A DNA stretch of 27,858 nt from positions 1-27,858 of the IMG/VR virus record IMGVR_UViG_3300042731_003594. One strand, written 5' to 3'. The DNA comes from a virus. Below the pieces are notes generated by a model. It was not told the origin of the DNA, made no database searches, and worked only from the letters and a program-made list of their open reading frames with translations. Shown here one piece after another: positions 2,790-27,706 of this stretch (position 1 is its first letter; the number at the start of each line of letters is the position of its first letter). The position numbers and the translations under genes are program-made.

Positions 2790-2998
2790 TATGTCACCTT
2801 TACCCAAGCAATTTTAAATACAATATTGTTTACCTTTGTGTAAGTATAAAGAGTATCACCAACAAGTGCTTTTATTTCTTCGCCATTTCTAAGTTCATCA
2901 TAATTAGGCTCACCAATTGATATCTTAATCCCGGGCTTTCCAGCTTTTTGGTTTATTAAGTTTCTTATTCTTCTGTCTATTATTGGTGTATTAATCAT
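2789..2998 (-). CDS. Small hypothetical protein, 69 residues
   Basis: The ATG at 2998 overlaps the stop codon of the large upstream gene as TAATG, so translation is probably coupled. The protein starts with a basic helix (IDRRIRNLINQKAG) followed by a beta-rich half ending FKIAWVKVT. No signal peptide, membrane segment or known motif is visible. Similar small beta proteins behind tail genes can be tail completion or connector proteins, but this is only a positional argument. Reality of the gene is supported by the TAATG junctions at both ends and by unbroken packing; function is unknown. Confidence 0.5.
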   Translation of the reverse strand: MINTPIIDRRIRNLINQKAGKPGIKISIGEPNYDELRNGEEIKALVGDTLYTYTKVNNIVFKIAWVKVT

Positions 2999-5406
2999 TA
3001 TGAAATTCTTTTATAAATTGGTCTATACTCAATCATAATCTGATCTACTTCAAATGTTCCAGTAGCAGAAATTTTCAATTGTATACTTTGTGCATCAAGT
3101 ATTGTACTAAAATTAATAGCTGCTATATCCCAATCACTTGAAGATGATATTAATGTAGAAGGAATATATGTATTTATAAATCCGCTTGCATCTTCTCCAT
3201 CAAGTATATAACTTAATGTATTATTCATTTGCTGTGCAACACTTGATTTGTATCTTAAATAAATAGCATATACTCTTTTATTAACACTTGGTAAATTAAA
3301 ATCAATATCTTTTGTTGTAAAATATTGAGTTGCAGCAGTTGGTGTATCAGTCCATTTGTAAATACCACTACTATCCCCAAGAGCACCATGATCCATATAT
3401 ATTATAAGTTCATCATCGTGAACTACGAAATTAGAAAGTCCAGCAGCACCATTTGTATAATATGCGTCAGAACTAAAATCAAAAGAATTTGTTTTAATAT
3501 TATACACCCATACATCCGTATCTGTAGAAGATGGATCTGCTATAGAAATTATTTTATCTCCTTCGGGTGTAACGCCAATTATAGAATTGTCCCCAACTGT
3601 CCATGAGTTTGTATCAATTCTTTTGATTATAGCATTATCTATAGAATCGCTAACTAAATTAATAGGCTGATTTTGTCCATTATAAACAAACATACCAAAT
3701 TTATTTATCCACACAACTCCATCTTGAAATGTAAATACTGCATGTTGGTTTGCAACTCCCATTCTATTGTGAACATCTTCAACAAACCAATCATTATAAT
3801 GTGGCTGTGCAACATTTACAATATATAATCTTTCTTTCTTAAACACAAGAAGTCTATCTGCATAAAAAGCAAGTTTAATTATTTCATCGCCATCTTGTGG
3901 TACTATATCAAGAACATAAGATGCTGGAAACGTATCATATTTAAATGGTGGAGTAAACATAACACGATCACCAAATATTTGTTTATCATCGTCATCATTA
4001 ATGGTTACCTTTACATTCCCAATCCACGTTCTACCGTTCCCAACAACGGCTGTTTTATATTTCGCATATATAGAAACCTCATCTGGGCTATAACCATTTA
4101 AAGCATCATATGAAATAGTTGGCGGATCTGCAACATCAAAACTTGAATCAAGCCAGAAATAATTATTGCCAGTTATACTTCCACCTTCATCGGACATGGC
4201 ACGTCTAAAATAATTTGTAAACTCACTTGAATATGGATCACTCCTTACACCACGTTCAAAATCTATATCCGATACAATATACCAAGTAGGTGTCCCCTGC
4301 TCTCTAACGTAAACCCTTGCACCCTTTATTCTTTCATCATAAGGAGATGTTAAGTAAAAATTTAATCTTAACGCTTCGTTGGAGCCGAATGTTATAGTCC
4401 AATTAGCACCAGTTGATGAATACTGTGGTCTATAAATAAGAGATTCTTGATCATCATGGTATACAAATGTATACCCTATTTCCCAAACACTTCCATTTTC
4501 CCATGTCCCCGTCCCGCCATTATATGCGGTCATATTTATTCCAGAACCAGTTGGTGGGAAAATGGCAACATCAAGACCACTTGCACCAGCAGCTTCTCCA
4601 TACCATGTATCTCCTGCACCAAGAGCACCAGTTGTAACATCTCCAGTTGCTCCTATTGTAGAAATTACACGTGCAGGATAATAATCATCACTTGCATCAT
4701 TGTCATCTTGTGTTGCAAGTATATAACTTAAACCATCAATTGGGAACTTATGCATTATCCCAGCCGCAACAGTTTGTGTGTCACCAACACCAGTTGTTGT
4801 GTTTGTCATTAATACTGTCGATTGATTCCCGACTATTCCAGTTGTCGGAGTTAAAACATGTTGTGCATATTCAAACCATCCATCATAATCATCATTTGCA
4901 CCAGATGACGTACCATCAATTATAGATACCGGGAAATGAGTTCTTTTTATATATTGCAATACTCTTGGATTTGCAGTAAAATCTAAATCAAATGATCTAA
5001 GCCCACCGTTTACATAGTAATAATCTATATAATCACTTGAATGATAACTAAAATTTTCCCACGTTTCTGTTGTCCCTGCTGTATCGTGATCACCCCAGAT
5101 GCTAACATAATTTGTATTTTTATCAAATAATGCTAAAAATTTATTACGCCCCTCGGTTATCGTACCAGATGTTGGCATATCTTGATCTGCTGAAAAAGAA
5201 TATAGTCCGTATCCATCTTGATGTTGTTTTCTTGAAGTACCAAAACTTGAGTCAATCGTTTTTGTGCCAAGAGTCTTAATTTTACCATAATATTGAGTAG
5301 TCATATTATCAGAATCAGATTGTGAATATTGCTCGATAGCAGATGGCGTTGGATGATTTTTTAATCCACCATTAAAATTATCAATTATGTAAAACTGTTT
5401 TGGCAT
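2998..5406 (-). CDS. Putative tail nozzle / hub protein, beta-propeller-like
   Basis: 802 residues, ATG with AAAGGG upstream. It opens with PKQFYIIDNFNGGLKNHPTPSAIEQ, the 'x-DNF-x-GG' type of opening seen in podoviral tail tubular/nozzle proteins. The rest is overwhelmingly beta, with many YxxxNG and DDD turns. The segment around residues 510-600 contains IIKLAFYADRLLVFKKERLY and later VVWINKFGMFVYNGQ, typical propeller-blade strands of P22 gp10-like or T7 gp12-like proteins. It ends in a beta domain finishing IMIEYRPIYKRIS. Such proteins form the hexameric tube that extends the tail below the adaptor and gates the DNA. The order nozzle then ejection proteins agrees. The exact family cannot be fixed without a profile search. 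Confidence 0.65.
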   Translation of the reverse strand: MPKQFYIIDNFNGGLKNHPTPSAIEQYSQSDSDNMTTQYYGKIKTLGTKTIDSSFGTSRKQHQDGYGLYSFSADQDMPTSGTITEGRNKFLALFDKNTNYVSIWGDHDTAGTTETWENFSYHSSDYIDYYYVNGGLRSFDLDFTANPRVLQYIKRTHFPVSIIDGTSSGANDDYDGWFEYAQHVLTPTTGIVGNQSTVLMTNTTTGVGDTQTVAAGIMHKFPIDGLSYILATQDDNDASDDYYPARVISTIGATGDVTTGALGAGDTWYGEAAGASGLDVAIFPPTGSGINMTAYNGGTGTWENGSVWEIGYTFVYHDDQESLIYRPQYSSTGANWTITFGSNEALRLNFYLTSPYDERIKGARVYVREQGTPTWYIVSDIDFERGVRSDPYSSEFTNYFRRAMSDEGGSITGNNYFWLDSSFDVADPPTISYDALNGYSPDEVSIYAKYKTAVVGNGRTWIGNVKVTINDDDDKQIFGDRVMFTPPFKYDTFPASYVLDIVPQDGDEIIKLAFYADRLLVFKKERLYIVNVAQPHYNDWFVEDVHNRMGVANQHAVFTFQDGVVWINKFGMFVYNGQNQPINLVSDSIDNAIIKRIDTNSWTVGDNSIIGVTPEGDKIISIADPSSTDTDVWVYNIKTNSFDFSSDAYYTNGAAGLSNFVVHDDELIIYMDHGALGDSSGIYKWTDTPTAATQYFTTKDIDFNLPSVNKRVYAIYLRYKSSVAQQMNNTLSYILDGEDASGFINTYIPSTLISSSSDWDIAAINFSTILDAQSIQLKISATGTFEVDQIMIEYRPIYKRIS

Positions 5407-6197: not shown

Positions 6198-6841
6198 AGT
6201 TCCTCTGTTGATATAACATCCTCTCTATTATGTTGTAAGATTGTGGCCAGTGCTTTTTCATCACCAGTAGAAGCATCCATCCATAATTGCGGTTCAATAG
6301 GTGTATCTTTTGCATTAATCCCTAAATGCCTACACGCTGACAATAATGAATTACGCCCAAGTCTTAGCTTACTTTTCACTGAATCATACAAATCAGTAAC
6401 AAATAATTCTTTGTATCCCGGGAAATCAATACCATGTCTTAAGCATCTACTCCTCAAAAATGGTATATCAAATCTATAATTTTTTCCCCAATACACCACA
6501 ATTCTATCAAAATTTTTAAAATCTTTAATAAGCTGTTCCATTATACGCTTATCAAAAATCTTATTATGTATATCTTTTCGTGTTACAGTTCTTTCAAGTA
6601 TTTTTGGATTATCTAATTCTTTAATACAATATGTAAATACATATCCAAATGATGCATTTAAATTACTCGACTCAATATCCAGAAATCCAATACGTTCTAT
6701 ATCCACAGGACAATTGTCCAGAGAAGCTCTTTCCATCTCGAAACATTTTAGGTGTTCTGTATAACGATGTCCATGCTTCTTGCAATGATGGTTGTACAGC
6801 CATAAAATTTCCGATTTCTTCAATCTGTTTAAATTCAACAT
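6149..6841 (-). CDS. RNase H-like 3'-5' exonuclease (DEDD superfamily, RNase_H_2/YprB-like)
   Basis: 230 residues. The start at 6841 is decided by a strong TTTAGGAGGAAACA ribosome site. The DEDD metal-binding motifs are visible in order: FLDIES (Asp55, Glu57), RFDIPFLRSRC (Asp125) and HNREDV (His204, Asp208). Before the catalytic core, residues 20-33 (C-x2-H-x6-H-x2-C) could bind zinc. Known members of this superfamily hydrolyse DNA or RNA from the 3' end with two metal ions. Its location among lysis and membrane genes in a late operon is odd; it may act in genome processing, host nucleic acid degradation or mRNA turnover. Its first 57 codons overlap the upstream gene in another frame, and its last 49 bases overlap the downstream gene. 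Confidence 0.8.
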   Translation of the reverse strand: MLNLNRLKKSEILWLYNHHCKKHGHRYTEHLKCFEMERASLDNCPVDIERIGFLDIESSNLNASFGYVFTYCIKELDNPKILERTVTRKDIHNKIFDKRIMEQLIKDFKNFDRIVVYWGKNYRFDIPFLRSRCLRHGIDFPGYKELFVTDLYDSVKSKLRLGRNSLLSACRHLGINAKDTPIEPQLWMDASTGDEKALATILQHNREDVISTEELWKVMRKFSGRQRSSL

Positions 6842-7145
6842 TGTTTCCTCCTAAAGAATTATTTTTCTGATATATAGAAAGCTTACCATTAATTCCAGCG
6901 ATATCAACCTTAACATCGGATACCTCTGTTTTAAGTGTTTCAACTGAACTTTTTAATTCAACAACGGAAGTATTTATATAATCAAGCTTTTCAAGTTTTC
7001 TTCCAACATGAAAAGCACCTAAAAATATATAACCAATAAGAGTAAGAATAACACCAGAACCAATCCAACTTATAGCTTTAACAATAAAAGGTTTAACCGT
7101 AGGAAGATTAGTTCCACCATTTCCGTCACTGAATGCCTTTACCAT
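6672..7145 (-). CDS. Single-pass membrane protein with coiled coil, spanin/XhlA-like topology
   Basis: 157 residues, joined to the amidase stop by TAATG with AAGGA before it. Residues about 24-46 form one transmembrane helix (AISWIGSGVILTLIGYIFLGA). It is followed by a heptad-type region at about 50-92 (LEKLDYINTSVVELKSSVETL and on). This topology, directly after the endolysin, resembles accessory lysis proteins (inner-membrane spanins, XhlA-like proteins) but no family is certain. The last 57 residues are encoded in the same 170 bases as the exonuclease N-terminus in another frame, so this C-terminus is either a genuine overlapping product or a read-on tail of a shorter ancestral protein. 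The N-terminal 100 residues are the more reliable part. Confidence 0.55.
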   Translation of the reverse strand: MVKAFSDGNGGTNLPTVKPFIVKAISWIGSGVILTLIGYIFLGAFHVGRKLEKLDYINTSVVELKSSVETLKTEVSDVKVDIAGINGKLSIYQKNNSLGGNNVEFKQIEEIGNFMAVQPSLQEAWTSLYRTPKMFRDGKSFSGQLSCGYRTYWISGY

Positions 7146-7702
7146 TATAAATTCCTTGTCTCTTTCAATACATTGAATATATCAGAATGTATATCTAACA
7201 TTTTTAAATGACTATATAAAAGTTTTAAATATTCATTATTAATATTTTCACCGGGACATCTTGTGTTTGTATAATGTCTATGAAACGATATAGGTAACTT
7301 CTTTTTAATAGCAAGATTAATTCCGTGTATAGTCATAGCCAAAGATACTGTCTGTTCGTCTGTTGGCTCGTCAAGCATCATGTTCCCAAACATACAGATT
7401 CCAATTGTATTATTATTATGTCCCTTACAATGAGCACCATTAATTTGCTGTTTCCATCTATTAGAATACCACACTCTTCCAGATGGCATAATAATAATAT
7501 GATAGCCTATGCCATTCCAGCCTTTATTCTCGTGACCGTCCTCAATCAGTTCGAGAAATTTACGTTCATCTTCCACACTATAATCGACACCCTTAATACT
7601 TTTCTTAGGTGGATCGTAAGTGTGGTGTAGGATAAAACTTTTCCATCTTGACGTTGTGACTAACTTATATAGTTCGTCCTCATCGTTCATTCGATACAGC
7701 AT
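7145..7702 (-). CDS. N-acetylmuramoyl-L-alanine amidase endolysin (Amidase_2/PGRP fold)
   Basis: 185 residues, start ATG with AGGAGGAGTC directly before it. Family motifs are clear: FILHHTYD (25-30, first Zn ligand His26), GWNGIGYHIIIMPSGRVW (61-78), GAHCKGHNNNTIGICMFGN (89-107) and FHRHYTNTRCPG (140-151, ligands His141 and Cys149). This is the zinc amidase arrangement of T7 lysozyme and related phage endolysins, which cut the bond between MurNAc and L-alanine of peptidoglycan to release progeny. There is no signal peptide, so it needs a holin, which fits the membrane protein genes downstream. The length covers a single catalytic domain with no separate wall-binding module. Confidence 0.92.
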   Translation of the reverse strand: MLYRMNDEDELYKLVTTSRWKSFILHHTYDPPKKSIKGVDYSVEDERKFLELIEDGHENKGWNGIGYHIIIMPSGRVWYSNRWKQQINGAHCKGHNNNTIGICMFGNMMLDEPTDEQTVSLAMTIHGINLAIKKKLPISFHRHYTNTRCPGENINNEYLKLLYSHLKMLDIHSDIFNVLKETRNL

Positions 7703-7710
7703 GACTCCTC

Positions 7711-9054
7711 CTATTCTACATCATACACACTATTCAGATCTTCAAGTTTTACCTCGTATATCTTTAATGCATCTGTAATTCCAAAGGGATTGGTCGCTGG
7801 CCCGGAAGGTGGCGACGGGCCACTTCCACTCGGTACATCTATAACATATGCCCTTGTATAGTTATCTCCCCTCTGTTCAGCCACCTGTACATACTTACCA
7901 TTCGTGAGATATAACAGCTTCGATGACACTGAAAGGTTATTTATCGTTAAACTGTCACGCTGAGTAATCGGATCTCCATCCGCAAGATCAATATGAATTT
8001 GTCTCAATTTGTAATCATCATAGGCAATATTATCCACTGTCACCCAAAGCATAACAGAATCATTATCCCAATGTTGAGCAAATGATGGATACCCACCATA
8101 AGACGGTGACGCCACTTGTATTGAATCAATCGGACTGCCAAAATTGCCACTTGTTGTATCACCATCAAATGAGACAAATTTATATCTATTCCTTGTATTT
8201 GTCGTCATCCCAGCAAGCCAATATTCACTTCCCCTATAATGCTTTGCTCCGATATACTGATATGGATTAAAATTCGACGAGATTTCAATCGTATCCACTG
8301 GAACTGGATTCACGTCTCCATCTGAGGGATCAACATAATACTTTTCAACCTGTGCACTTAACGCACCAACGCCGGGCCCGGCCGTGACATAGTAAGGGAT
8401 ATAGAAATATCCACCTGATAAGTATTCAATATACTGAGGCTGGAAACCAGCGTCATATTGCTCTATCGTTTCAATCTCAGTCACACTGCCATCGGACGAA
8501 CTTACAGAGAACGAATAAAAGTTTTTACTGGAAACGATACCACCGGAACTTGTACCCATGAAATAATCAGTTCCATCAATTGCAATGAGATATGGGCTCC
8601 TACCCTCATATGTAAGAATTTCAGTAGAGTCTATCCATGCCGTGCTTCCAATTATTCCGGCATCGGTTATGCTTATTGAAGCAATCCACATATCCTCATC
8701 AACGTCTCTGTAGATAACACCCCAATAATTTGTTCCAGATCTCCGTGCAAGACCAAACTTTTGTCCGGTATGGGGTTGTCCTGAAGATCCGGCTGCCTTT
8801 GACATTGAATCGAGAGCGGCATGTTCAACAATTCCATCACTGCCAATCCTTATTGTCTTCATATGGAATGTGTTTGGCGATGCCGTTGTATAAGTGACAA
8901 CAATCGTCGAATCATTTATTTTCTCTGCAAGCTGAACAGATCCATTCAAGCTTTCAATATTACAACTATCGACGAGAGTTATAGCACCGAATGCCTCAGT
9001 ACCAAAATATAAGCAATATGATAATAATACAAAAGTTAATAATTTTTTTATCAT
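7711..9054 (-). CDS. Secreted beta-propeller-like protein with Sec signal peptide
   Basis: The chosen start is the ATG at 9054 (447 residues): it overlaps the preceding stop as ATGA and places a classic signal peptide at the N-terminus (MIKKLLTFVLLSYCLYFG..., cleavage probably near EAFGA). An ATG 15 bases earlier has no ribosome site. The mature protein is all beta. It shows repeated strand patterns such as YWGVIYRDVDEDMWIASISI and YWLAGMTTNTRNRYKFVSF, suggesting a propeller of several blades. A Gly/Ser/Pro linker (SGSGPSPPSGPA) and a short acidic C-terminal tail follow. Its sequence is visibly richer in G+C than its neighbours. No enzyme motif is seen. It could be an exported adhesin, a receptor-binding accessory or a captured host surface protein. 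Confidence 0.6.
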   Translation of the reverse strand: MIKKLLTFVLLSYCLYFGTEAFGAITLVDSCNIESLNGSVQLAEKINDSTIVVTYTTASPNTFHMKTIRIGSDGIVEHAALDSMSKAAGSSGQPHTGQKFGLARRSGTNYWGVIYRDVDEDMWIASISITDAGIIGSTAWIDSTEILTYEGRSPYLIAIDGTDYFMGTSSGGIVSSKNFYSFSVSSSDGSVTEIETIEQYDAGFQPQYIEYLSGGYFYIPYYVTAGPGVGALSAQVEKYYVDPSDGDVNPVPVDTIEISSNFNPYQYIGAKHYRGSEYWLAGMTTNTRNRYKFVSFDGDTTSGNFGSPIDSIQVASPSYGGYPSFAQHWDNDSVMLWVTVDNIAYDDYKLRQIHIDLADGDPITQRDSLTINNLSVSSKLLYLTNGKYVQVAEQRGDNYTRAYVIDVPSGSGPSPPSGPATNPFGITDALKIYEVKLEDLNSVYDVE

Positions 9055-10556
9055 TGAATTTGCACCCATGTTAAGTCAGGTTTAAAGTAAACTGTATCGT
9101 CATCGTATACCCAACCTATAGCCTGTAAAATATCTCTTGAATCACTTGGCTTATTAGCTTCCTGAACTATAGCACCGGCAGTTCCATCATCTACGAATAA
9201 CACATTTGCTATTCCGTTACCAACACTCCAAGTCCATGCGTCTCTATGGACATAGCCCTCTCTTATACATAGACCAGATGCATCTGCTAATATTGTAGCA
9301 ACAGCCATTGCCTCTGCAAGCATTTGTATATTTGTATCTGCATCACATTTCCAATACTTTCCATCTGATTTTTTATATAACACTTCACCTGCAAATACGT
9401 TTTCACCAACAGTCAACGTATCAATTTTACCAGAGAAACTGCCGTTAGTTGTTGGAATTGTATACCCACCAAACGAAACAACAAATCTATTCCCCTCCTC
9501 TGTGTTATGATAATATTGATTGGCTGTTCCGCCCTGCAACCCAACTAATTCATTATGTCTCGTTATCTGAGGCGTTTTAAAATTAGTATAATGCTCAGTA
9601 CCGTTATGAGTGAATATTACATTCGTAGTATTGTTCGATATACCGAATGGAATCTCACCAAGTCTTGCAGAATCAGTAATCGTTATTGATTGCTGCGTAG
9701 ATGGTGTAACTATGTAAGAATAATTAGGAGAAAGATTTAATATTGCACCAGTATTTATCTCAAATTCCCTATGCCATACGTCATACCCAACACCAGATTC
9801 ATTTGTATAAGTAGAAGGGGTTACTATTGTGACAGTAGAATCGTTTGTAAACCCTGTAATTCTATAAAGCCCCTGCGGTGTTTCAAGGTGACTACTTCTT
9901 GTTAATGTTGCACTTGAATCATTTACAGAAAATGGTGCAGCGGCCTTTCCTGAGATTGTAGCAGTTCTTGAAATACCAGATCCAGTCGTAGTCACGCTGC
10001 CACCATATCCCTCGATTATATAAATAACTCTCGTAATTGATGATAACCTTCCACCAAGTGTAGATGTCACAGCACAGTATGTAGCGAAGTCCCACTCCCC
10101 TCCATTAATTTCTGTACCACCAAGTGCCTGATTGTATTTATAGGCCTCTATATAAGCAGTATCGCTATCACAAGAAATAGTATCGGCATCGAGAGGGCCA
10201 CCACCCGGGCTTCTAAGTAACTCATTGATCTCATAATCATTGTTTACGCCAGACCCTACAAGCTCAGAATCATCCATATAGTAAGTTATACCAGACCCAC
10301 CGCTAACAGCTAAACTTGGTGCATTCACCCACCCGCTTCCAATATACTTGATAACATCATCAACGGCGGGAGTTGTAGTTGTAACTGTAAGTTTTTGGTT
10401 TATTCTTGTATTGTGTTGTGTAAGCGTATCTTGAATAGTATTTATCGTGTCGACATAAGTGCTTGAAAGTGCGTCAACGCCAGCTCTTTGTTGCCCCACC
10501 TGTGCGAATACAAGAGATGATGTTAGTGCTAATACAGCTAATATTTTCTTAAACAT
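9051..10556 (-). CDS. Tail-fibre-like protein carrying a Sec signal peptide
   Basis: The start at 10556 is chosen because GGGGGGTGA lies just before it and because it gives a signal peptide (MFKKILAVLALTSSLVFAQ, cleavage after FAQ or FA). The ATG 15 bases upstream would contain that ribosome site. The mature part carries fibre hallmarks: an oligomerisation-like helix (about 30-55), KYIGSGWVNAPS (about 70-81), and HNELVGLQGGTANQYYH (334-350), a motif known from many phage tail fibres. A C-terminal beta domain follows with GIANVLFVDDGTAGAIVQ and a final DTVYFKPDLTWVQIQ. Fibres normally fold in the cytoplasm, so an export signal is unexpected. It sits between two other signal-peptide genes. The fibre likeness is from recognised motifs; the cell location is inferred. 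Confidence 0.65.
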   Translation of the reverse strand: MFKKILAVLALTSSLVFAQVGQQRAGVDALSSTYVDTINTIQDTLTQHNTRINQKLTVTTTTPAVDDVIKYIGSGWVNAPSLAVSGGSGITYYMDDSELVGSGVNNDYEINELLRSPGGGPLDADTISCDSDTAYIEAYKYNQALGGTEINGGEWDFATYCAVTSTLGGRLSSITRVIYIIEGYGGSVTTTGSGISRTATISGKAAAPFSVNDSSATLTRSSHLETPQGLYRITGFTNDSTVTIVTPSTYTNESGVGYDVWHREFEINTGAILNLSPNYSYIVTPSTQQSITITDSARLGEIPFGISNNTTNVIFTHNGTEHYTNFKTPQITRHNELVGLQGGTANQYYHNTEEGNRFVVSFGGYTIPTTNGSFSGKIDTLTVGENVFAGEVLYKKSDGKYWKCDADTNIQMLAEAMAVATILADASGLCIREGYVHRDAWTWSVGNGIANVLFVDDGTAGAIVQEANKPSDSRDILQAIGWVYDDDTVYFKPDLTWVQIQ

Positions 10557-10570
10557 TAAGTCACCCCCCA

Positions 10571-11035
10571 TTAAAATTGGTATCCAGTTGCAGTGACTAC
10601 AGCAGATCCGCTTTCCAATTTAACCGCTATTGAATCAGCAGCAACAGGTAAATTAACTATAGCACCAGCAGCACATCTTGTGTCTGATGTTGCCTGATCA
10701 ATTCCGATCCAAAATGGTTTTGTTAGATCATCACAAAAAATAGACACATAATCAACAGCCGTGGCAAACGTAAGCACAACATCAGTTGTCGATACAGTAG
10801 ATGTGTCCGTTAATGATTCAGTAAATGGTGCATCTGATCCAACTAAATTACCATCGGAATCAACAGAAAATATATGATACTTTCCATCAGATCCTTTACC
10901 AGCAATAACAGTACCATAACGATGTTTTGCATTTGTTGGAAGTGTACTATCATCTTGCCTTATTGTATTAAGAGATGGCTGTGCAAAAGCAGACACGCAA
11001 AGCAAAAACATTAAAACAATAAATTTTTTAAACAT
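10571..11035 (-). CDS. Small secreted beta protein, virion-appendage-like
   Basis: The start is the ATG at 11035 (154 residues) with GGGGA at correct spacing; a TTG two codons earlier is unlikely. The N-terminus MFKKFIVLMFLLCVSAFA-Q is a signal peptide with an AxA-type cleavage site. The mature protein contains KGSDGKYHIFSVDSDGNLVG (47-66), a pattern seen in phage decoration and appendage proteins. A compact beta-sandwich-like half with two cysteines (Cys101, Cys121) follows, ending SGSAVVTATGYQF. Two cysteines in an exported protein could form a disulfide. It lies just before the fibre-like gene and may be its partner. No family is certain. Confidence 0.55.
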   Translation of the reverse strand: MFKKFIVLMFLLCVSAFAQPSLNTIRQDDSTLPTNAKHRYGTVIAGKGSDGKYHIFSVDSDGNLVGSDAPFTESLTDTSTVSTTDVVLTFATAVDYVSIFCDDLTKPFWIGIDQATSDTRCAAGAIVNLPVAADSIAVKLESGSAVVTATGYQF

Positions 11036-11045: not shown

Positions 11046-12269
11046 CTATTTTATTGCATATACTTTTCTTGTTGTTATTATTCTCGGACTTCCACTTAAT
11101 GCGTTTTTCGATTTGCTAAGTTTTTCATAAAATAATCTCTTAAGATATTCTGACTCATCATATTGTTTATTATCAAACGCAATTCTATGTCTTACGAATT
11201 CTATAATAGCATCAACATTATACTTTCTGTCTTTTATTATAGATGATTCGCTTGGATCTGTTTCTGGAACGCCAGAAGATGAATAAAAAATCGCATCACC
11301 AGTCATATATTCTATACGTAAACCATTATTTATATTAACAGTTGGTGGAACAAAATGATTTTCAAGCAATTCCACAGGATAGCCATTTTCCTGCGATTCA
11401 TTAGCATTGTATTCATATAAAAATAGCTTGTTAGCTCTTATCTGATATCCCCACATTCTTGAAAATACATAATTACTTGCATCTGAAAAATCATTAACAG
11501 CTGTTGAATTATCAGTGTCTAACATATTTGCAAGTCTATCTTCATTTTTAATATTTGATACAGATAAATCATTAGTCCACTGTTCTAAGCTTTCCTCTTT
11601 TTCATTAAAGTAAGAATAATTTAAGTCACTAACAATTCTTGGTATTGGTTTATATTTATCTCTACTTGAACGTTTCAAACTAATATCGGTAACATGTAAC
11701 GTTCCTACTGTAGATGCAGAAATTCTAAGTTTATCTCCAGTTCTTTTTGCTATAAATTCAAATCTATGTATACCAGCCGATGATAATATAGTATGTAAAT
11801 CTTCACCAGTGCTCAACTCGAATATAAAAGTTCCAGTATGCCCGGTGCGTGTGGTATATTCTATTGTATATCTTTGTCCTGCGACTAAAATAGAATCATT
11901 ATCAAGCTCAACATATTCAGTCCCAATAGGTGCTATACCATACAATCCATTATAATATGATCCCCCATAGCCATTATATTCAAAACTTGTTAATCCGTTA
12001 TTAGTCCAGTATCCAATAGCAAAATAATCAGAATTCATCAATTCACTACCGTACACAACATTTTTAGAAAATACACCGATATTTGTTGTGCAATCAGAAG
12101 GAAGATCATATGCTATTCTTCCAGTTACTATATGATAATCCTTTGTAATAGATGGAACATTTTTTTCTATAGCCATTTCTCTATATGCTTCTTGAATATA
12201 TTGAATGGCAAACCCGGGTCTTGTTTCACCCGTTATTTCCATTAACTTTTCTACTGTATAATAACTCAT
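11046..12269 (-). CDS. Putative head-tail adaptor / tail tubular protein with inserted beta domain
   Basis: 407 residues, coupled to the previous gene by TAATG. The N-terminal 60 residues (helix EKLMEITGETRPGFAIQYI, then strand TGRIAYDLPSDC) and the C-terminal helices (DAIIEFVRHRIAFDNKQYDE, then EYLKRLFYEKLSKSKN) look like the split helical core of podoviral adaptor/tail tube A proteins. Between them, about residues 115-200 form a beta-sandwich-like insertion (LVAGQRYTIEYTTRTG to LHVTDISLKRSS) that resembles a carbohydrate-binding-type module. It has no signal peptide. It probably belongs to the neck that joins portal to nozzle. The adaptor role is inferred from fold pattern and context; no profile search was possible. 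Confidence 0.5.
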   Translation of the reverse strand: MSYYTVEKLMEITGETRPGFAIQYIQEAYREMAIEKNVPSITKDYHIVTGRIAYDLPSDCTTNIGVFSKNVVYGSELMNSDYFAIGYWTNNGLTSFEYNGYGGSYYNGLYGIAPIGTEYVELDNDSILVAGQRYTIEYTTRTGHTGTFIFELSTGEDLHTILSSAGIHRFEFIAKRTGDKLRISASTVGTLHVTDISLKRSSRDKYKPIPRIVSDLNYSYFNEKEESLEQWTNDLSVSNIKNEDRLANMLDTDNSTAVNDFSDASNYVFSRMWGYQIRANKLFLYEYNANESQENGYPVELLENHFVPPTVNINNGLRIEYMTGDAIFYSSSGVPETDPSESSIIKDRKYNVDAIIEFVRHRIAFDNKQYDESEYLKRLFYEKLSKSKNALSGSPRIITTRKVYAIK

Positions 12270-12766
12270 TAATCAACCACCAAAAATTTAACAGCTAAAT
12301 GTCCAGCAGAAGCATTATCACTTCCATCATTATCAACGGTTCTAACGTGTATATTTGTACAATCTATACCAGAATTTGGATCGACAAATGCAACTCCAGC
12401 TCCAGATGGTAATATTGATATATTTGTAGTGCCAAACATTACTTTAATTGATTTATCGAGGGATGAACCAAGAACAGTTGCACTTGAATATTCATACCCT
12501 GTATTCTCTATATATACAAAATTTGCTGTTGTCTCCGAAGATACATCAGTAGTATTTGCACTATCTATAGCTTCACGATAATTTACCTCACCATCTTTAT
12601 ATCCCTGAACATTTGCATCTCCAGAATAATCCGTAATATCTATATTAAATGTTGCACCAAGAGAACGTCCAACTTCACTTGCAAGTATATCTTTTGTTGT
12701 ATTGTTCTCACTTGTAAGCTCCTCACGTGGTTCAACGTAAACACCTATTCTAATTTGGTCAGACAT
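12269..12766 (-). CDS. Small beta-rich appendage protein, paralogue of the upstream gene's C-terminal domain
   Basis: 165 residues, ATG with TAGGAGTATAA upstream. Its whole length aligns by eye with the last about 158 residues of the preceding 545-residue protein. Shared anchors in the same order are VEPxE, ASEV, GYxxxxxYxEA, (N)TGxEY, LGxxxxxxxK(V/I), LPSxxGxxxxDPNSxI, VDxxG and KFL(A/V)V. This indicates domain duplication inside the operon. The domain is beta-rich without catalytic motifs, so a virion-surface or fibre-attachment role is likely. No known family name is recognised. The chromosomal order long protein then stand-alone domain suggests both bind the same partner or form a mixed complex. 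Confidence 0.6.
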   Translation of the reverse strand: MSDQIRIGVYVEPREELTSENNTTKDILASEVGRSLGATFNIDITDYSGDANVQGYKDGEVNYREAIDSANTTDVSSETTANFVYIENTGYEYSSATVLGSSLDKSIKVMFGTTNISILPSGAGVAFVDPNSGIDCTNIHVRTVDNDGSDNASAGHLAVKFLVVD

Positions 12767-12774
12767 TTATACTC

Positions 12775-14412
12775 CTAAACAGCTAAAAATTTAATAGCAT
12801 TCCCATTGCCGGATGATATTACATTTCCTTCTAAATCTACCGTTTCAAAATCAAGACTACCAAAATTAATACTACTATTTGGATCAATAAGAAATAATCC
12901 AGATTTCGATGGCAATACAGATAACGTTCCGCCTGATGCTATTTTTACAAGATTTGTGTTTTTGACACCAAGCGATGTAGAATTTACATATTCACATCCA
13001 GTATTGTATATAAAAATAAGTCCCTTACTGCCACTTCCTATCGTCCCGGCAGTAGCGATAGCAGCCTCTTTATAATAAGGAATCTTATTTGAATATCCAT
13101 TTGAATCGCCATTTATATTAAAATTAAAATCAGATAGTACAGCGTACCCCATAAAATGCACATCAACCTCAGAAGCGGTAACATAATTACTATCACTGTC
13201 AGCACTTTGTATATCTTCTTGTGGCTCAACAGTTATTCTTATATGGGCATCTCCTACACCACTTCCTATAACCTCAATATATGCTATTTTAGTTTCCGTA
13301 TCTTCTGATAATCCATCTGAAACTGTTAATGATACTGTATAATTTCCAGCCTCCGTATATTCATGTGTCGGATTTTGTTCATCTGATACGCCACCATCAC
13401 CAAATGTCCAGCTCCATGATATCGGAGAACCAGTAGATAAATCAGTAAATGTTATAGAATTATATACTTTTATTGAAAAAGTATCTGCAATGAAATCTGC
13501 AACAGTAAATTCTAATTCATCACCAAGAGATACTGTTAACTTGCCTTCACCACCAGATGGTAATGTTATAATACGTATATTATCTATAACACATTCACCA
13601 GTCCTTGTTGGTTGCGATGCAGATCCAACTGTAAATGAAAAACCCTCATTTGAATCAAATGTTACAGAATGTGGCCCATATACATTTCCATCTATTGTTG
13701 TTGTTAACTGCCCACCAGCAGGTCTATTAAATAATACTGTATGCAATGATGCGTCTGAAATGCTTGGAGATACGGATACATAACTTGATCCATCGTAATA
13801 ATATTTATCACCATATAATGCAGATGGAACTACTCTTGATTCTGTTGGTGATGTAGAACCATTTACACCTATGCCGAATTCCCATAAAGAATATACTTCA
13901 TAATCTGTAAATTGAAATTCAAAATATGCCTCAAATCCATCACTATCATCAAGAAGAAATTCTGATGTTTTAGACCATGCTCTACTATATTTACTCCCAT
14001 AAGATATACCACTTGTTTCAAGGACAAGTTTTTCATCTTCTATTCTTGTCTCTCCAGCAATATCCCACTTAGAAAGATCTCCAGAAAAATCATCATAAAA
14101 TAAGTATGTATCATCTGGCTCACTTAATAATGTTGCAGATGGATTTCCATATACACAATATATAGTTTTACCAGCAGCAGGTTTAGATGGAATCTTAACA
14201 ATCCAAAGCGATGTTACACCACTTGTATAAGATTGTCTACACTGACTCAATAATGTAACGCCATCAGAATCTACAAAACGTATATCAGAAAAATCAGACT
14301 TCATGTCAGAATCGTAAGTTACTGTTATTTCTGCGTTTATATCAGTTTCTAATTGAGACGTTGCAGGAACAGTACCTATTTTATATTTTGTCCAACCATC
14401 TGGAAACGCCAT
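12775..14412 (-). CDS. Multidomain surface protein: DUF2341-like, lectin-like, PKD, appendage domain
   Basis: 545 residues, coupled to the upstream stop by TAATG, with GGGGA upstream. Domains by eye: about 15-100 DUF2341-like (DFSDIRFVDSDG, LWIVKIPSKPAAGKTIYCVYG); about 104-285 a concanavalin/LamG-like jelly roll starting YDDFSGDLSKWDI; about 305-383 a PKD domain with the signature SWSWTFGDGGVSDEQNPTHEY; and 388-545 a domain paralogous to the next gene. DUF2341 and PKD are typical of prokaryotic cell-surface proteins, and PKD modules often mediate carbohydrate or protein contacts. There is no signal peptide, so the protein most likely sits on the virion as an appendage or adhesion factor. The PKD call is firm; the virion role is inferred. 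Confidence 0.7.
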   Translation of the reverse strand: MAFPDGWTKYKIGTVPATSQLETDINAEITVTYDSDMKSDFSDIRFVDSDGVTLLSQCRQSYTSGVTSLWIVKIPSKPAAGKTIYCVYGNPSATLLSEPDDTYLFYDDFSGDLSKWDIAGETRIEDEKLVLETSGISYGSKYSRAWSKTSEFLLDDSDGFEAYFEFQFTDYEVYSLWEFGIGVNGSTSPTESRVVPSALYGDKYYYDGSSYVSVSPSISDASLHTVLFNRPAGGQLTTTIDGNVYGPHSVTFDSNEGFSFTVGSASQPTRTGECVIDNIRIITLPSGGEGKLTVSLGDELEFTVADFIADTFSIKVYNSITFTDLSTGSPISWSWTFGDGGVSDEQNPTHEYTEAGNYTVSLTVSDGLSEDTETKIAYIEVIGSGVGDAHIRITVEPQEDIQSADSDSNYVTASEVDVHFMGYAVLSDFNFNINGDSNGYSNKIPYYKEAAIATAGTIGSGSKGLIFIYNTGCEYVNSTSLGVKNTNLVKIASGGTLSVLPSKSGLFLIDPNSSINFGSLDFETVDLEGNVISSGNGNAIKFLAV

Positions 14413-16478: not shown

Positions 16479-16653
16479 TAGATACTTCACCTGTAAGTTT
16501 ATTTATATGCTTATTCAATCTTTCTATTTTCTTATAAAGCTCGTTTGCAGCAATAAAATCTTTTTTTACAAGCCTTCCATGTTTTGCTCTTAATTTTCTC
16601 TTTCTATCAATAAGCAAAATTATTTGTTTTTGTTTATCTATACTATTAACCAA
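16465..16653 (-). CDS. Small basic coiled-coil protein
   Basis: 62 residues, with no internal Met, so the start must be non-ATG: TTG at 16653, which has GGA about 7 bases upstream and lies 16 bases inside the end of the preceding gene. It is Lys/Arg-rich with a regular Leu/Ile spacing (IILLIDRKRKLRAKH, then LYKKIERLNKHINKL), so it is one helical hairpin or coiled coil. It overlaps the next gene by 14 bases. It may be a small assembly chaperone or nucleic-acid-binding helper; nothing more can be read from it. Confidence 0.45.
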   Translation of the reverse strand: MVNSIDKQKQIILLIDRKRKLRAKHGRLVKKDFIAANELYKKIERLNKHINKLTGEVSNGNV

Positions 16654-17390
16654 TTTTTTCCAACATCTAAAAAATTATATAATAATTTAGCATCATTATC
16701 ATAAGGTTCCTTGCCAATATTCTTCGCCTCTTTTTCTATATGTCTAATTATATCTTTTTCGTTTTCCCATGATATTGATGTTGGTGTACGAGCATTACTT
16801 ATTGTTTTTCTTCCCATTAATCCCATCTCATGAATAGATGCTGGACTTCCATCAAATTGTCTTAATCTTAATCCAACAAAAGAATCTTTATATAGTTCTT
16901 TAAGTTGAGATCTGGTATAATCTTTACAGCTATCAATAAGTACTACATCATATTTAACTAACTTAGATATTTTTTCAACAAGAGATCTTCCATAAATTTC
17001 ATTCGGAGCATAGCTATATATTTTATTACCAAGCTTACATGGTTTCCAGTAGTCTATATCTGTATTGGGAAGCATTAATAAATGAGAATCTATGTTATGA
17101 AGTCTCAGACTATCAAAAATATAACTCGATATTGATATATGTCTTATATTTTCATCACAACCTAAAAACTCTACTATTTTATCTCTCGTAGCATCTATGC
17201 CCATCCAAACAAGTACAACAGGAGCATAATGTTCTTTTATATTAATTGCTTCTTCAAGTGTATAACACCCAATAAAAACAGTTGGTTCATCTTTATCTAT
17301 TGCATCAACAGCTTTAAGGTTATACATTTTTTCATATGCTTTTGTAAAATGCTTAACCCCAACAGAAACATACATATTTTTTATTTGCAT
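16638..17390 (-). CDS. Glycosyltransferase-like protein (GT-B C-terminal-like)
   Basis: 250 residues, ATG with AAGGAGGTATT; this ribosome site is made from the last codons of the first glycosyltransferase gene, which overlaps by 10 bases. The N-terminal part is a Rossmann-like half (DEPTVFIGCYTLEEAINI, VVLVWMGIDATR). The C-terminal half contains VGLRLRQFDGSPASIHEMGL and GRKTISNA (172-200), which matches the acceptor/donor loop of GT-B enzymes where a Glu contacts the nucleotide sugar. It is shorter than a full GT4 enzyme (about 350-400 residues). It may act with the adjacent full-length enzyme, possibly as a sequential transferase. Substrate unknown. The family likeness is moderate. Confidence 0.55.
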   Translation of the reverse strand: MQIKNMYVSVGVKHFTKAYEKMYNLKAVDAIDKDEPTVFIGCYTLEEAINIKEHYAPVVLVWMGIDATRDKIVEFLGCDENIRHISISSYIFDSLRLHNIDSHLLMLPNTDIDYWKPCKLGNKIYSYAPNEIYGRSLVEKISKLVKYDVVLIDSCKDYTRSQLKELYKDSFVGLRLRQFDGSPASIHEMGLMGRKTISNARTPTSISWENEKDIIRHIEKEAKNIGKEPYDNDAKLLYNFLDVGKNWLIV

Positions 17391-18427: not shown

Positions 18428-18439
18428 TACTCCTCCTTT

Positions 18440-18473
18440 GAAAAACAGCAGGGGCTTCAATGCCCCTGCTGTT
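18440..18473 (-). terminator. Rho-independent terminator after the capsid/decoration genes
   Basis: A perfect 12-bp stem (AACAGCAGGGGC / GCCCCTGCTGTT, 18444-18455 and 18462-18473) with a 6-base loop, followed on the minus strand by a run of T. It starts 5 bases after the decoration gene stop and ends just before the ribosome site of the glycosyltransferase gene. It probably gives partial termination, keeping capsid and decoration mRNA high and downstream genes lower. Confidence 0.85.
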
Positions 18474-21472: not shown

Positions 21473-23718
21473 GTATTTTTATTAGCACGAGAATCTTTTT
21501 TAGATGCTTGTATTTCTTGCTTTAATTTTAATATTTCAGCATTAGCTTTTATTAATGCTTCTTCAATTCTTTCTGTAGCTTCTATATCAGATTTTGATTC
21601 CTCCTTTTGAGTTTGGATTTCTGTGTTTGCAACAAGAATTTTATTCTTTATTTCTGTTTGTACAATTTGTCTTTGAAGAGTTTCTATTGTACCATTTAAA
21701 TCTTTAATATTATTTTCAAGCCCATCAATTGTTGAATGTGCTTTAGCAAGTGCAGATTTTCGTTCTATAATTTTATCTTTATTTGCTATCTCTGCATGAG
21801 TTAAAAATTCTATATCATCAATTATTCCAGATTCATACCAATTATAATATTCTTTTAATAAAGCCCACTTATTTACTGGCATTGTAGCTCCGCCAACAAT
21901 TTTTATATCAAATCTTGTAGATTGATAATCGTTATATCTCTCTACAACATTTCCATAATCATCATACAGCGGAACATTAATTTCAAAAGATTCCACTTGT
22001 TCTGGCTGAACAATTCTAAATACTTTGTGTGTCGTATATAATGCCTGTGCAAGTTTCATATGTACACGTCCAATTTGCTCAAGAGCCGGCTCAACTGTAG
22101 AAATCATCCAATCTCTTACACGGCGAGTACTATATTCTTCATTTGCAAGCATGCCTTTATATGTATCATGCTGTGTTGTTATATCTCCCTGCATTGAAGA
22201 ATAAATACCAGCAATATATTCCATTTCACGTTCACCATACTGAACAATATTAAAAAATGCATTATTTAATGGAGCTGGTAAGATTTCTTTTGGTTCTTCA
22301 AATCCCTTCCTATATGGAAGTAATGCACCGGGAGCAGAAGAATATTTTTCCCAATAGTCTTCATCAATTGCTCCCTGTTCATATTTATATCTTAAGCTTG
22401 AACCAAGACTTGCATTATGAATTAATATTTGATGTGATTTATTAATTTCTCTTTGTTTTCCCTTTAAAAATGTTACATCGCTAAGAGGAAATGGAGTCCC
22501 AGTATGCTTAAAACAAATTGGAACTATTGGATATTCAGATAATGTTGGAAATTCTTTTTCATATAAATATGTATCAGCACCAATAGAAACACATACATTT
22601 ATTCTATTTTCATAATATGGAATAGCGTCAACAACAATTTCCATAAAATCTTTAACTTTTTGTAATTTCTTCCATTCTTTTTCGGTTACAGATTTTTCTT
22701 CTATAATAGTAATTCTATTTATTTCATCAGACATCATCATTTGATATTGTCTTTCAAGATTTTCTTGGCTTTCTTTTTTAAACTTTTCAAGTTCAAATTC
22801 AGCCCTTTCAATAATCATGTCTCCATCAGAAATAAGTTTTTTAAATTCTGCTTCCATCTCTTTATAGCGAACTTCATTTTCCAATTGTATTTCTTGAATA
22901 CGAATATCTACACCAGACTTAATCCCATTTATTTGTTCTTGAGTTGGATCTTGTCTTGTATAAACACTAATAAATTTAGTTGGAGATTTCGTATATGTTT
23001 CATAATAATCTATTATTTCATCTTGAGATCCATCAGATAAAAATGTTTCCATAATATCTTCACGATAAATTATTTCGCTGCTTTCTATGTCTCTCATAGA
23101 ATGATAATCAATACTTGAATTACCAGATGCTTTTTTTATTTTATCCTCAAATTGTGGCAATTTCTCTATTAATTTAGACTTCGATAAATTCTTTTTTATC
23201 TGAATCCAAGCAGCATCTCTAAATAAAAAATCAGTTGATGCTGGATCAATATATACATCAAGAGGATAAATTCTTCTAAATATTACTTCACCCTTCCCCC
23301 TATCCAACGAACTATCAATGTCAACATGAAAAAAGCCAACACCCTCAACAAGAGAATCTTGAATAACCTGAGAATACAAACTTTTCCCTTGAGATAGTTC
23401 CCAAGAATAATCTGCTATTTTATTATGAATTTTACATATATCAGTATCGTCTTCTGTTCTCCCTATCGCTTCCCATCTTGGATTATTAGCCGTAGCAAAA
23501 TATCTTTTAAGCTCAACAATTGGTGTTAATCTGTTAACAATAAATGTTGGCATTCCAGCAGATTCAAGTGCTTTTATCTCTTCAATATCTAATTGATCAT
23601 TATTAAAAAAATCACGATTACTTTTAGCATTTATAGCCCATTTAAATCTATTTCCTGTATTTGCTTTTTTGAATAATGCTGCATTATTTTCAGCCTTACG
23701 TCTCAATGCTTCACTCAT
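21469..23718 (-). CDS. Portal protein, P22-like
   Basis: 749 residues, ATG with AAAGGAACACAAA, overlapping the lipoprotein gene by 8 bases. P22-type portal features are present: an N-terminal helical wing (FNNDQLDIEEIKALESAGMP, PTFIVNRLTPIVELKRYF), then QVIQDSLVEGVGFFHVDID and YPLDVYIDPASTDFLFRDA (about 119-170). The central core contains VPICFKHTGTPFPLSDVTFL and EREMEYIAGIYSSMQGDI. A long C-terminal coiled coil (about 655-745) corresponds to the helical barrel of P22-like portals. Residues about 258-345 are an extra charged coiled coil inserted in the wing. The portal is the dodecameric DNA channel at the special vertex, and length agrees with the family (about 700-750). Confidence 0.88.
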   Translation of the reverse strand: MSEALRRKAENNAALFKKANTGNRFKWAINAKSNRDFFNNDQLDIEEIKALESAGMPTFIVNRLTPIVELKRYFATANNPRWEAIGRTEDDTDICKIHNKIADYSWELSQGKSLYSQVIQDSLVEGVGFFHVDIDSSLDRGKGEVIFRRIYPLDVYIDPASTDFLFRDAAWIQIKKNLSKSKLIEKLPQFEDKIKKASGNSSIDYHSMRDIESSEIIYREDIMETFLSDGSQDEIIDYYETYTKSPTKFISVYTRQDPTQEQINGIKSGVDIRIQEIQLENEVRYKEMEAEFKKLISDGDMIIERAEFELEKFKKESQENLERQYQMMMSDEINRITIIEEKSVTEKEWKKLQKVKDFMEIVVDAIPYYENRINVCVSIGADTYLYEKEFPTLSEYPIVPICFKHTGTPFPLSDVTFLKGKQREINKSHQILIHNASLGSSLRYKYEQGAIDEDYWEKYSSAPGALLPYRKGFEEPKEILPAPLNNAFFNIVQYGEREMEYIAGIYSSMQGDITTQHDTYKGMLANEEYSTRRVRDWMISTVEPALEQIGRVHMKLAQALYTTHKVFRIVQPEQVESFEINVPLYDDYGNVVERYNDYQSTRFDIKIVGGATMPVNKWALLKEYYNWYESGIIDDIEFLTHAEIANKDKIIERKSALAKAHSTIDGLENNIKDLNGTIETLQRQIVQTEIKNKILVANTEIQTQKEESKSDIEATERIEEALIKANAEILKLKQEIQASKKDSRANKNT

Positions 23719-24622
23719 TTTGTGTTCCTTTAATATTATAAATAAAAACTTCTATAGAATATGGACTTTCATTTGAATACTTATCATATGCCGTTACTAC
23801 AAAAAACCAATTTAAATCATATGATAATCCATAAAATGTATATTCAGTTTTTTTACAAATTATAACATTATCATAGACACCACTGCTATTACCATAATAT
23901 ATTTTGTACCCACTTAAATCTTCTTCGGTATTTGCATCCCAAGATACTTTTATACCAGATTCTCCAAAATTAACATCCCATTCCATACCACAAGTATCAG
24001 CTGTAATCCATTCATTTGTACTATATTCAAATCCCATTAATGTAACAAATGGTGCAACACTATTAGTTTCTATTGTATCAATAAAACATTCATTACATTT
24101 TAATGTATCCATCTTAAAAAACAAAACATCGTCTGTATCGTATGTTCTCCACATTCTAAAATCAGAACCATTTGAATATTTAGCATTTGTAAATCTTATA
24201 TAAAAATTAGTTATATATGTATTTAAATTATTTTTTAATTTTACTTGATATTTATAATTACTTATTGGATCTATTGATATACAAGAATTACCAGAAATAC
24301 CAGTTTTCGCTATAATATTAACTGGAGCAGAGACATGCAAAGTATCAATAATAATTATATTTTCATATGTTATATTTTTAGGAATTTCAATTTTCGCTGC
24401 GAGGCTGTCGTTAATAAATATATTAACTCCAAATGAAGTGGAATCATCAAAATTGTAAATATCTAATTTTGGTGTAATGCCGTCTACTCCATCTTTTCCA
24501 CTTTCCCCTTGAATCCCCTGATCACCAGTTTCTCCTTTTTCTCCCTGAATTCCCTGAGGCCCTTCGATACAGCTACAAAATAATAATACAAACAAACAAA
24601 GTATTTTTAAGCAATTACCCAT
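23711..24622 (-). CDS. Collagen-like and FN3-containing lipoprotein
   Basis: 303 residues, with AAAGG before the ATG and 16 bases of overlap with the terL end. The N-terminus is a lipoprotein signal (MGNCLKILCLFVLLFCSC, probable lipidated Cys18 with Ser at -1). Immediately after it is a run of Gly-x-y triplets (GPQGIQGEKGETGDQGIQGE and on, about 21-47), i.e. a short collagen-like stalk. The middle is beta-rich; the C-terminal 85 residues are a fibronectin type III domain with VSWDANTEEDLSGYKIYYG and FVVTAYDKYSNESP. Predicted result: a trimeric, membrane-anchored surface protein. Such proteins are unusual between terminase and portal. It may alter host adhesion or block superinfection. Family elements are clear; function is inferred. 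Confidence 0.75.
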   Translation of the reverse strand: MGNCLKILCLFVLLFCSCIEGPQGIQGEKGETGDQGIQGESGKDGVDGITPKLDIYNFDDSTSFGVNIFINDSLAAKIEIPKNITYENIIIIDTLHVSAPVNIIAKTGISGNSCISIDPISNYKYQVKLKNNLNTYITNFYIRFTNAKYSNGSDFRMWRTYDTDDVLFFKMDTLKCNECFIDTIETNSVAPFVTLMGFEYSTNEWITADTCGMEWDVNFGESGIKVSWDANTEEDLSGYKIYYGNSSGVYDNVIICKKTEYTFYGLSYDLNWFFVVTAYDKYSNESPYSIEVFIYNIKGTQNE

Positions 24623-26202
24623 GATTTAACCTTTGGTCTATATTTATGATATTCACCATCTTTTTCATTTTTTGTCATATTTGGAGGAAATGCATTTTTT
24701 GCACAAAACGCAAGTGTTTCAATTGTATCGTCATGCCCCATCCTTGGCCCAAACATAATGATTTCGTCAATTAAGTCTACATGTCCTTTTCTAAGGAATA
24801 TAGTTCTAAGAGAAAATCTTCCATTTAAAATACTATAAATTTTATTGCGTTTTTCACGGCCACCCGGTTTCTCTGATATAATAGAAATATCAAATCTATT
24901 TCTCAAGATACGCTGATCATCAAGTGATTGCATTACACTACGTGTCATAGCAACGTCTTCAACAGTTCCAGATTCACAATGATATTTATCATACATTTCA
25001 AATATATAATCAACAACGCCTTTATTAAATAATGTACCATCTGGATTTCTTCTTCCACTTGTTGGAATTGATCTATGTCTTTCATAGTCAAGTACATATA
25101 AATTATTTAATGAATCAACCGCACAAACCATTATAACACTAAAATCTGATTCTTTCGTGTCAATATCAGTAGCAGGATCACAACCAAGAAATATATTTAC
25201 TGGAAATTTTTCACCATTCCATATTAAATAATTTATACCAGTATTTTCATCGTAATTATATATAGCTTCATGATATTGAATCATATCACGTGTAAATAAC
25301 GCATCTTCTTCACTTTGAACTTCCATTTGATATTCTTGGAAGAACTTTGCTGGTTGTCCAGAATCTCTATAAAATCTTTTCTTTTCTTCAATTATTTCAG
25401 GAGTGAAAAATGATGGCCATAATAAAGATCCATCTTGCTGAATACATTTTCTTGTATATACAGTCCATTCAAATGGTTCTTCTTTTTCACATGCACGTTT
25501 ATAGTTTATTAACATATTATTAATAAAACTATCAAAATGAACAGGTGTACCATTAACTCTTAATCTTCCAGTATGCGGTTCAAGTGCAGGATAAACAACA
25601 GCCGTAATTAATGAAGAATTTTTATCACGTGCCTCCTTTGTAATTGTATTCGCTTCGTGCTCAAAATCATCCAAACAAAGGAGATCATATCTTCTATGAA
25701 GTTTAGCCCCACCACGTATACCAGAAATATTTGATCTGCTTACAAGCTTATTGGGTTCACAATCATAACCAAGCGGATTTTTAAATGAACGTGTTTCAAT
25801 ATCCTCTCCAGTCCATTTATCTTTACTTCTTATATCCCCGAAATAATATAATATTTTTTCATTATATTGTATATGATATTTAATATAATCAACAAGACCA
25901 AGTGCAAGTTTTTGCGTTGCAGAAACAAACCCATAAAAATGATAATCCTCATCAAATAGAAAATCTTTTATGACACTTGCTTTTGTTAAAATACTTTTAC
26001 CGTGTCCTCTTGGAATAAATATACCAAGCTTTCTAACATTCTTATCATCAATTAAATCAGAAATCTCATAATGAAACGCAGGAGTTTCGGATCTCATGTA
26101 ATCATCGGGCAAAAATAATTTACCAAACGCTATTAAATCATTTTTGGCTAACAATAAAGCTTCTTCTGCCTTTGATATGTTTTGAGAATTTATATTAAAC
26201 AT
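24607..26202 (-). CDS. terL: Terminase large subunit
   Basis: 531 residues, coupled to the upstream gene by TAATG. The ATPase half shows Walker A PRGHGKS (64-70), Walker B YDLLCLDDFEHE (172-183) and the coupling motif RVNGTP (215-220). The nuclease half shows GCDPATDIDTKESDF (340-354, Asp342 and Asp353 as candidate metal ligands) and MGHDDTIETLA (488-498, Asp491/Asp492), the RNase H-like endonuclease that cuts the DNA concatemer. This is the motor that pumps DNA through the portal. Length is typical (about 480-600). Together with the putative small subunit upstream it forms the packaging complex. The identification is firm. Confidence 0.95.
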   Translation of the reverse strand: MFNINSQNISKAEEALLLAKNDLIAFGKLFLPDDYMRSETPAFHYEISDLIDDKNVRKLGIFIPRGHGKSILTKASVIKDFLFDEDYHFYGFVSATQKLALGLVDYIKYHIQYNEKILYYFGDIRSKDKWTGEDIETRSFKNPLGYDCEPNKLVSRSNISGIRGGAKLHRRYDLLCLDDFEHEANTITKEARDKNSSLITAVVYPALEPHTGRLRVNGTPVHFDSFINNMLINYKRACEKEEPFEWTVYTRKCIQQDGSLLWPSFFTPEIIEEKKRFYRDSGQPAKFFQEYQMEVQSEEDALFTRDMIQYHEAIYNYDENTGINYLIWNGEKFPVNIFLGCDPATDIDTKESDFSVIMVCAVDSLNNLYVLDYERHRSIPTSGRRNPDGTLFNKGVVDYIFEMYDKYHCESGTVEDVAMTRSVMQSLDDQRILRNRFDISIISEKPGGREKRNKIYSILNGRFSLRTIFLRKGHVDLIDEIIMFGPRMGHDDTIETLAFCAKNAFPPNMTKNEKDGEYHKYRPKVKSWVIA

Positions 26203-27539: not shown

Positions 27540-27653
27540 ATAAAGTTTAAACGTTTATAAAAGATTATAAACTATTTAAACTTTTAAAAGATTATAAACG
27601 TATGTATTATAATATACTTTATAAACTATTTAAACTTTTAAAAGATTATAAAC
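27538..27653 (+). repeat. Five TTATAAA elements at exact 27-bp spacing
   Basis: TTATAAAG at 27538 and TTATAAAC at 27565, 27592, 27619 and 27646: four successive steps of exactly 27 bp. An inverted GTTTATAA at 27553 pairs with the second element as GTTTATA-n6-TATAAAC. The longer form AAAAGATTATAAAC occurs at 27559, 27586 and 27640. Such a regular array between two promoters looks like an iteron set (replication initiator) or tandem operator sites. Confidence 0.75.
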
Positions 27654-27658
27654 GTATG
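27565..27658 (+). repeat. 40-bp perfect direct repeat, period 54 bp
   Basis: The 40 bases at 27565-27604 and at 27619-27658 are identical. Each contains the 10-bp palindrome CTTTTAAAAG (27581-27590 and 27635-27644) between two TTATAAAC elements. The 54-bp period is twice the 27-bp phase, so the array arose by doubling of a two-element unit. Confidence 0.9.
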
Positions 27659-27677
27659 CAAAAAAATAAAAAAATGC

Positions 27678-27706
27678 TTGACTTTTACATTTTTTTTTCG
27701 TATATT
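27678..27706 (+). promoter_or_regulatory. Rightward sigma70-like promoter 2
   Basis: TTGACT (27678-27683), 17 bases, TATATT (27701-27706, part of TATATTATA). It is nearly identical in its boxes and the preceding TTCG to the scaffold promoter at 21444-21472. The start site near 27713 leaves about 20 bases of leader with GGAG before the ATG at 27734. Confidence 0.85.

Follow-up and report, generated by a model that had tools for sequence, protein, structure and literature searches.

Three adjacent genes for predicted Sec-exported proteins, one of them fibre-like, in an uncultured podovirus

Three consecutive genes of an uncultured podovirus, referred to as P1, P2 and P3, encode proteins that start with classical Sec/SPI signal peptides, as judged by rules, E. 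coli controls and shuffles, and one of them, P2, is fibre-like at its C-terminus. We see about an even chance that the three form a late-expressed cassette of Sec-exported proteins acting at the surface of the infected cell or within its envelope, and the phage probably remodels the envelope of its host instead of fitting its particles with unusual fibres. The window, i.e. the whole stretch of DNA that was analysed, comprises the 27,858 bases of one IMG/VR record (IMGVR_UViG_3300042731_003594), a fragment assigned to a podovirus on the basis of its TerL, portal and major head protein (PHROG profiles), a stabilization-like protein and an amidase endolysin.

Nearly all genes are carried by the minus strand (Table 1), in the order TerS, TerL, lipoprotein, portal, scaffold, capsid, two glycosyltransferase-like genes, proteins of 692, 545, 165 and 407 aa, P1, P2, P3, amidase, spanin-like, exonuclease-like, two small genes and the stabilization protein, with the amidase gene directly after P3. 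The glycosyltransferase-like pair (16638-18460) encodes a protein of 359 aa (Pfam Glyco_transf_4) and one of 250 aa (no match), and no counterpart was found in the relatives examined. The 545-aa protein (12775-14412) contains DUF2341 and PKD domains, and its C-terminus resembles the adjoining 165-aa protein when judged by eye (12269-14412). Promoter-like sites were not more numerous in the window than in shuffles.

Table 1 Features of the window, with positions counted from its first base.
Feature	Position	Strand	Remarks
P1, 154 aa, predicted exported, fold not assigned	10571..11035	−	Signal peptide MFKKFIVLMFLLCVSAFA↓Q at 10982-11035
P2, 501 aa, predicted exported, fibre-like	9051..10556	−	Signal peptide MFKKILAVLALTSSLVFA↓Q at 10503-10556
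P3, 447 aa, predicted exported	7711..9054	−	Signal peptide MIKKLLTFVLLSYCLYFGTEAFG↓A at 8986-9054
HN motif of P2, HNELVGLQGGTANQYYH	9507..9557	−	Occurs in phage fibres and exported bacterial proteins
P2 C-terminal domain	9057..9407	−	Similar to C-terminus of Flavobacterium phage vB_FspM_immuto tail fibre
Large terminase (TerL)	24607..26202	−	PHROG terminase 1e-54; query for finding relatives
Tail stabilization-like protein	2998..5406	−	Anchor of the interval in relatives
N-acetylmuramoyl-L-alanine amidase (endolysin)	7145..7702	−	Pfam Amidase_2 7e-12, PHROG amidase 1e-20
Spanin-like, one transmembrane segment and likely coiled coil	6672..7145	−	PHROG Rz-like spanin E 0.005, weak
Probable lipoprotein, collagen-like repeats and FN3 domain	23711..24622	−	N-terminus MGNCLKILCLFVLLFCS↓C

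An earlier note on this DNA had proposed three adjacent genes with Sec signal peptides, their starts chosen by ribosome sites for P1 and P2 and by ATGA coupling for P3. The N-termini are found in the DNA as it gave them, the rule test, controls and shuffles agree with the proposal, and the starts are all as it described: P1 begins at ATG 11035 with AGGGGA upstream, P2 at ATG 10556 with GGGGGGTGA upstream, and P3 at ATG 9054, overlapping the P2 stop codon in ATGA (translational coupling). Downstream in-frame start codons near the three signal peptides lack a clear Shine-Dalgarno site. The rule called for a charged n-region, an uncharged hydrophobic 10-mer and a small residue at position −1, its thresholds being set after the window proteins and E. 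coli controls had been seen, and relaxed for a survey of ORFs of at least 250 aa in relatives. Six exported E. coli proteins showed the features of the rule and the cytoplasmic ones did not. Among the annotated-scale proteins of the window, only P1, P2, P3 and the lipoprotein-like protein passed; a short ORF at the end of the window (27602-27856) passed only from an internal start. The rule was passed by 1.7% of shuffled N-termini and by 19 of 1215 coding-strand ORFs of relatives (1.6%), the latter taken from loci of which many were short fragments picked by similarity to the window, with simple ORF calling (longest, non-overlapping). As the pass rates are this low, three signal peptides in a row are not a matter of chance, and the predicted Sec export of P1, P2 and P3 is well supported. 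The lipoprotein-like gene, located between TerL and portal, encodes a fourth exported-looking late protein; in several relatives the TerL-portal gap instead holds a small membrane protein and a peptidase-like gene.

The hydrophobic N-termini could alternatively be uncleaved membrane or virion anchors, as P2 and P3 have moderately strong h-regions and the signal peptides were judged by rules only. However, clear small-residue sites are predicted behind the h-regions (SAFA↓Q, LVFA↓Q and EAFG↓A), and the h-regions of all three proteins are short, unlike most transmembrane anchors, which makes this explanation distinctly unlikely.

The fibre-like character of P2 appears in its C-terminal 117 aa, which share 30% identity with the immuto tail fibre (E 0.02 in the collection, 2e-9 pairwise). 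A probable coiled coil starts right behind the signal peptide, and the HN motif gave a weak match to another phage fibre (27 aa, E 0.2). No fibre hit was obtained in PHROG or Pfam and, apart from the immuto and HN-motif matches, no relative of P2 was found among the IMG/VR relatives, GenBank phages, PHROGs, Pfam or the PDB. The motif had been described as a known tail-fibre motif; it is indeed present but proved not to be specific, occurring also in exported bacterial proteins. A DNA-pattern scan for HN[DE]LxGLQGG across 257 billion bases of cellular genomes returned 14 stretches, comprising three spurious frames, three cut or open at the 5' end and eight intact ORFs. Five of these eight start with a signal peptide, three of the five being from Patescibacteria; the remaining three do not, one of them lying within a phage-like gene run and two coming from related Algoriphagus species. 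Since most of the intact cellular ORFs with the motif thus encode exported bacterial proteins, the HN motif alone cannot mark a tail fibre, and a "tail fibre" label given to an HNxLxGLQGG protein needs a prior check for a signal peptide. The C-terminal match to immuto is better evidence of fibre ancestry than the motif, yet modest.

For P1 and P3 a fibre relationship was not detectable, so that of the exported fibre-like proteins envisaged earlier, export is well supported for all three and fibre character only in part, for P2. P1 had no significant relative in PHROGs, Pfam, NCBIfam, phages or the PDB, and none was found for P3 in the records of the IMG/VR relatives, GenBank phages, PHROGs, Pfam or the PDB. 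Searches for P2 and P3 in cellular genomes of one phylum (17 genomes) gave nothing convincing. Single-sequence AlphaFold2 runs on the mature parts gave no usable structure (pLDDT 34.5 for P3, 32.6 for P2). An impression from the sequence that P3 might be a beta-propeller was dropped, as its internal repeats were not above shuffles.

GC3 was highest among the tabulated genes in P3 (0.33), followed by the amidase (0.31), P2 (0.27) and the exonuclease-like gene (0.26), while most other genes, P1 and the structural genes included, had values of 0.14-0.22. The raised values suggest that the stretch from P2 through P3 to the amidase was acquired, a signal not specific to the exported genes; because the GC3 of the amidase is likewise raised, composition alone cannot single out P2 and P3. 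As features of accessory genes, P1-P3 are absent from the relatives examined and GC3 is raised in P2 and P3, not in P1.

Relatives of the phage were found only by an alignment-based TerL scan of IMG/VR. Among the matches listed, no GenBank phage TerL exceeded about 24% identity to that of the window, IMG/VR single-protein searches with TerL, P3 or P2 returned no relative, and no TerL relative was found in cellular genomes. A related TerL was recovered by the scan in at least 452 IMG/VR stretches. In the best 80 it is 60-63% identical to that of the window; as these are all about equally distant, the window represents a separate lineage. A pattern aimed at this lineage was passed by the marine clade too and gave no closer TerL. 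Among the named phage records searched, none has a TerL close to that of this podovirus clade, which comprises more than 450 IMG/VR contigs. TerL, portal, scaffold, capsid and TerS were common to most of the 20 records examined, and the stabilization protein was present in seven of them, while no relative was found there of P1, P2, P3, the lipoprotein or the glycosyltransferase-like genes. One 111-kb contig (G011; L059, L172) carries two TerL-related and two stabilization-like genes and may therefore join two phages.

Although the proteins differ, exported proteins beside tail and lysis genes recur in the clade, as far as sequence features can tell, and it is the fibre-like cargo that is special to the window lineage. 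Three marine relatives (G010, G012 and G013) encode a thioredoxin-like protein (weak Pfam match, below cut-off) and a signal-peptide protein of 356-364 aa before the holin and stabilization protein. From its aromatic C-terminus the latter looks like an outer-membrane barrel, and it had no significant match in Pfam, PHROGs, phages or the PDB (L111:846-1916, L108:4340-5434). The barrel-like proteins of the three contigs are 80-84% identical overall, with more divergent leaders that meet at a common AQ↓DFF junction. G013 spans TerL, capsid, fibres, exported genes and stabilization protein in one stretch, whereas G010 and G012 end within the fibre region, the link from capsid to interval there being drawn from circular permutation. 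A further relative (L180) has the thioredoxin-like protein without a barrel-like partner. Small lipoprotein-like genes occur in G006, L150, L157, L160, L166 and L171, and L150, L157 and L160 encode a signal-peptide protein besides; that of L150 is 38% identical to a G005 protein without signal peptide, which we read as lysozyme-like from its sequence (no Pfam match). In the survey of ORFs of at least 250 aa, located after the capsid or before the stabilization gene, three of 86 were signal-peptide-like, all three being the barrel-like proteins. As many loci are short fragments, ORF calling was simple and thresholds were post hoc or relaxed, these counts are minimum examples, not frequencies. 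The arrangement of signal peptide plus fibre, for which the earlier note proposed a search in related contigs, did not appear: the fibre-like ORFs of relatives, including large ones, have no signal peptide. Its premise that tail fibres lack export signals held for these ORFs and for the immuto and Manatee fibres, and the fibre-like P2 differs from them in its predicted signal peptide.

On the simplest reading, that of action at the envelope, P1-P3 would be translated late, with the endolysin, from one coupled message, cross the membrane by SecYEG, have their signal peptides removed and reach their folded state in the periplasm or further out. The fibre-type modules of P2 would then attach to some component of the envelope, the phage's own receptor perhaps, a step made likely by its fibre-like C-terminal tip, and binding could keep superinfection down or curb re-adsorption to debris. 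The sequence is compatible alike with receptor blocking, with infected cells being held together and with a supply of fibres to virions after lysis. What we infer is the export in the real host, its timing, the location of the products and their binding role; the signal peptides, the coupling, the neighbours, the unusual composition of P2 and P3 and the recurrence of other exported proteins near the corresponding place in relatives were seen in the sequences themselves. Counting in favour of envelope action are the strong signal peptides in three adjacent genes, the unrelated exported proteins that relatives encode between fibre genes and stabilization protein, the raised GC3 of P2 and P3, and the signal peptides of the cellular HN-motif ORFs. 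Against it counts that the interval from the 407-aa protein to the endolysin holds no other fibre gene, while several relatives keep their fibres there, so P2 could be a virion fibre. P2, with P1 and P3, would then form the genuine tail fibre of the phage, assembled in the periplasm once exported and attached to particles at lysis or later. P2 is similar to a phage tail fibre in its C-terminal part and occupies the usual fibre place, which keeps virion incorporation a real alternative; however, the fibre-like ORFs of relatives lack a signal peptide, the 545-aa protein could be the binding protein of the virion, and we know of no described tailed phage that assembles fibres in the periplasm after export. 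We regard this assembly as improbable.

A narrower version of envelope action, also rather unlikely, would make P2 a decoy that blocks receptors: as an exported fibre tip, it would sit on the phage's own receptor and exclude other phages. Predicted export and the fibre-like C-terminus are consistent with it, and exclusion by small exported phage proteins is known from T5 Llp and Cor, but this would require P2 either to arrive at the outer surface or to work from the inner side. We hold out a similarly slim prospect for a tail-fibre-derived P2 that, with two partner proteins, serves either as a surface decoy on the receptor or for virion attachment outside the cytoplasm; either would be a use of fibres that we did not find described for tailed phages.

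The usual view of lytic phages is that, lysis aside, they change little in the envelope of the cell they infect. In the present podovirus clade, which is large and has no close named relatives, differing Sec-exported proteins turn up repeatedly next to tail and lysis genes. Should they block receptors or label infected cells, phage competition at the surface of dying cells would exceed the current view. Our literature search found no described system of Sec-exported fibre-like phage proteins. A Roseovarius phage protein annotated as "structural, host-like" was considered as a precedent and rejected, having no signal peptide, and phage DGR proteins are stated to lack signal peptides (PMC6199706). 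The Manatee Spring podovirus fibre shares the HN motif with P2, and the Flavobacterium phage immuto fibre its C-terminal domain, but neither has a signal peptide. Exported bacterial HN-motif proteins ("INYQGKLTD" type L294 and L296; Patescibacteria L299, L302 and L307) combine signal peptide and motif as P2 does, but have other N-terminal domains and no overall similarity to it, and L294 and L296 are not surrounded by a phage late operon. The related marine podoviruses share with the window a comparable late interval and the export habit, whereas their exported proteins have no sequence relationship to P1-P3. Among phage-encoded envelope proteins, lambda Lom, the PA-2 porin, T5 Llp and Cor are exported or membrane-targeted and alter the host envelope. 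P1-P3 are like them as phage proteins with an export signal, here predicted from sequence, but those proteins are small barrels or lipoproteins, whereas P2 is fibre-like and multi-domain, and the window carries three genes for predicted exported proteins consecutively between its tail and lysis genes.
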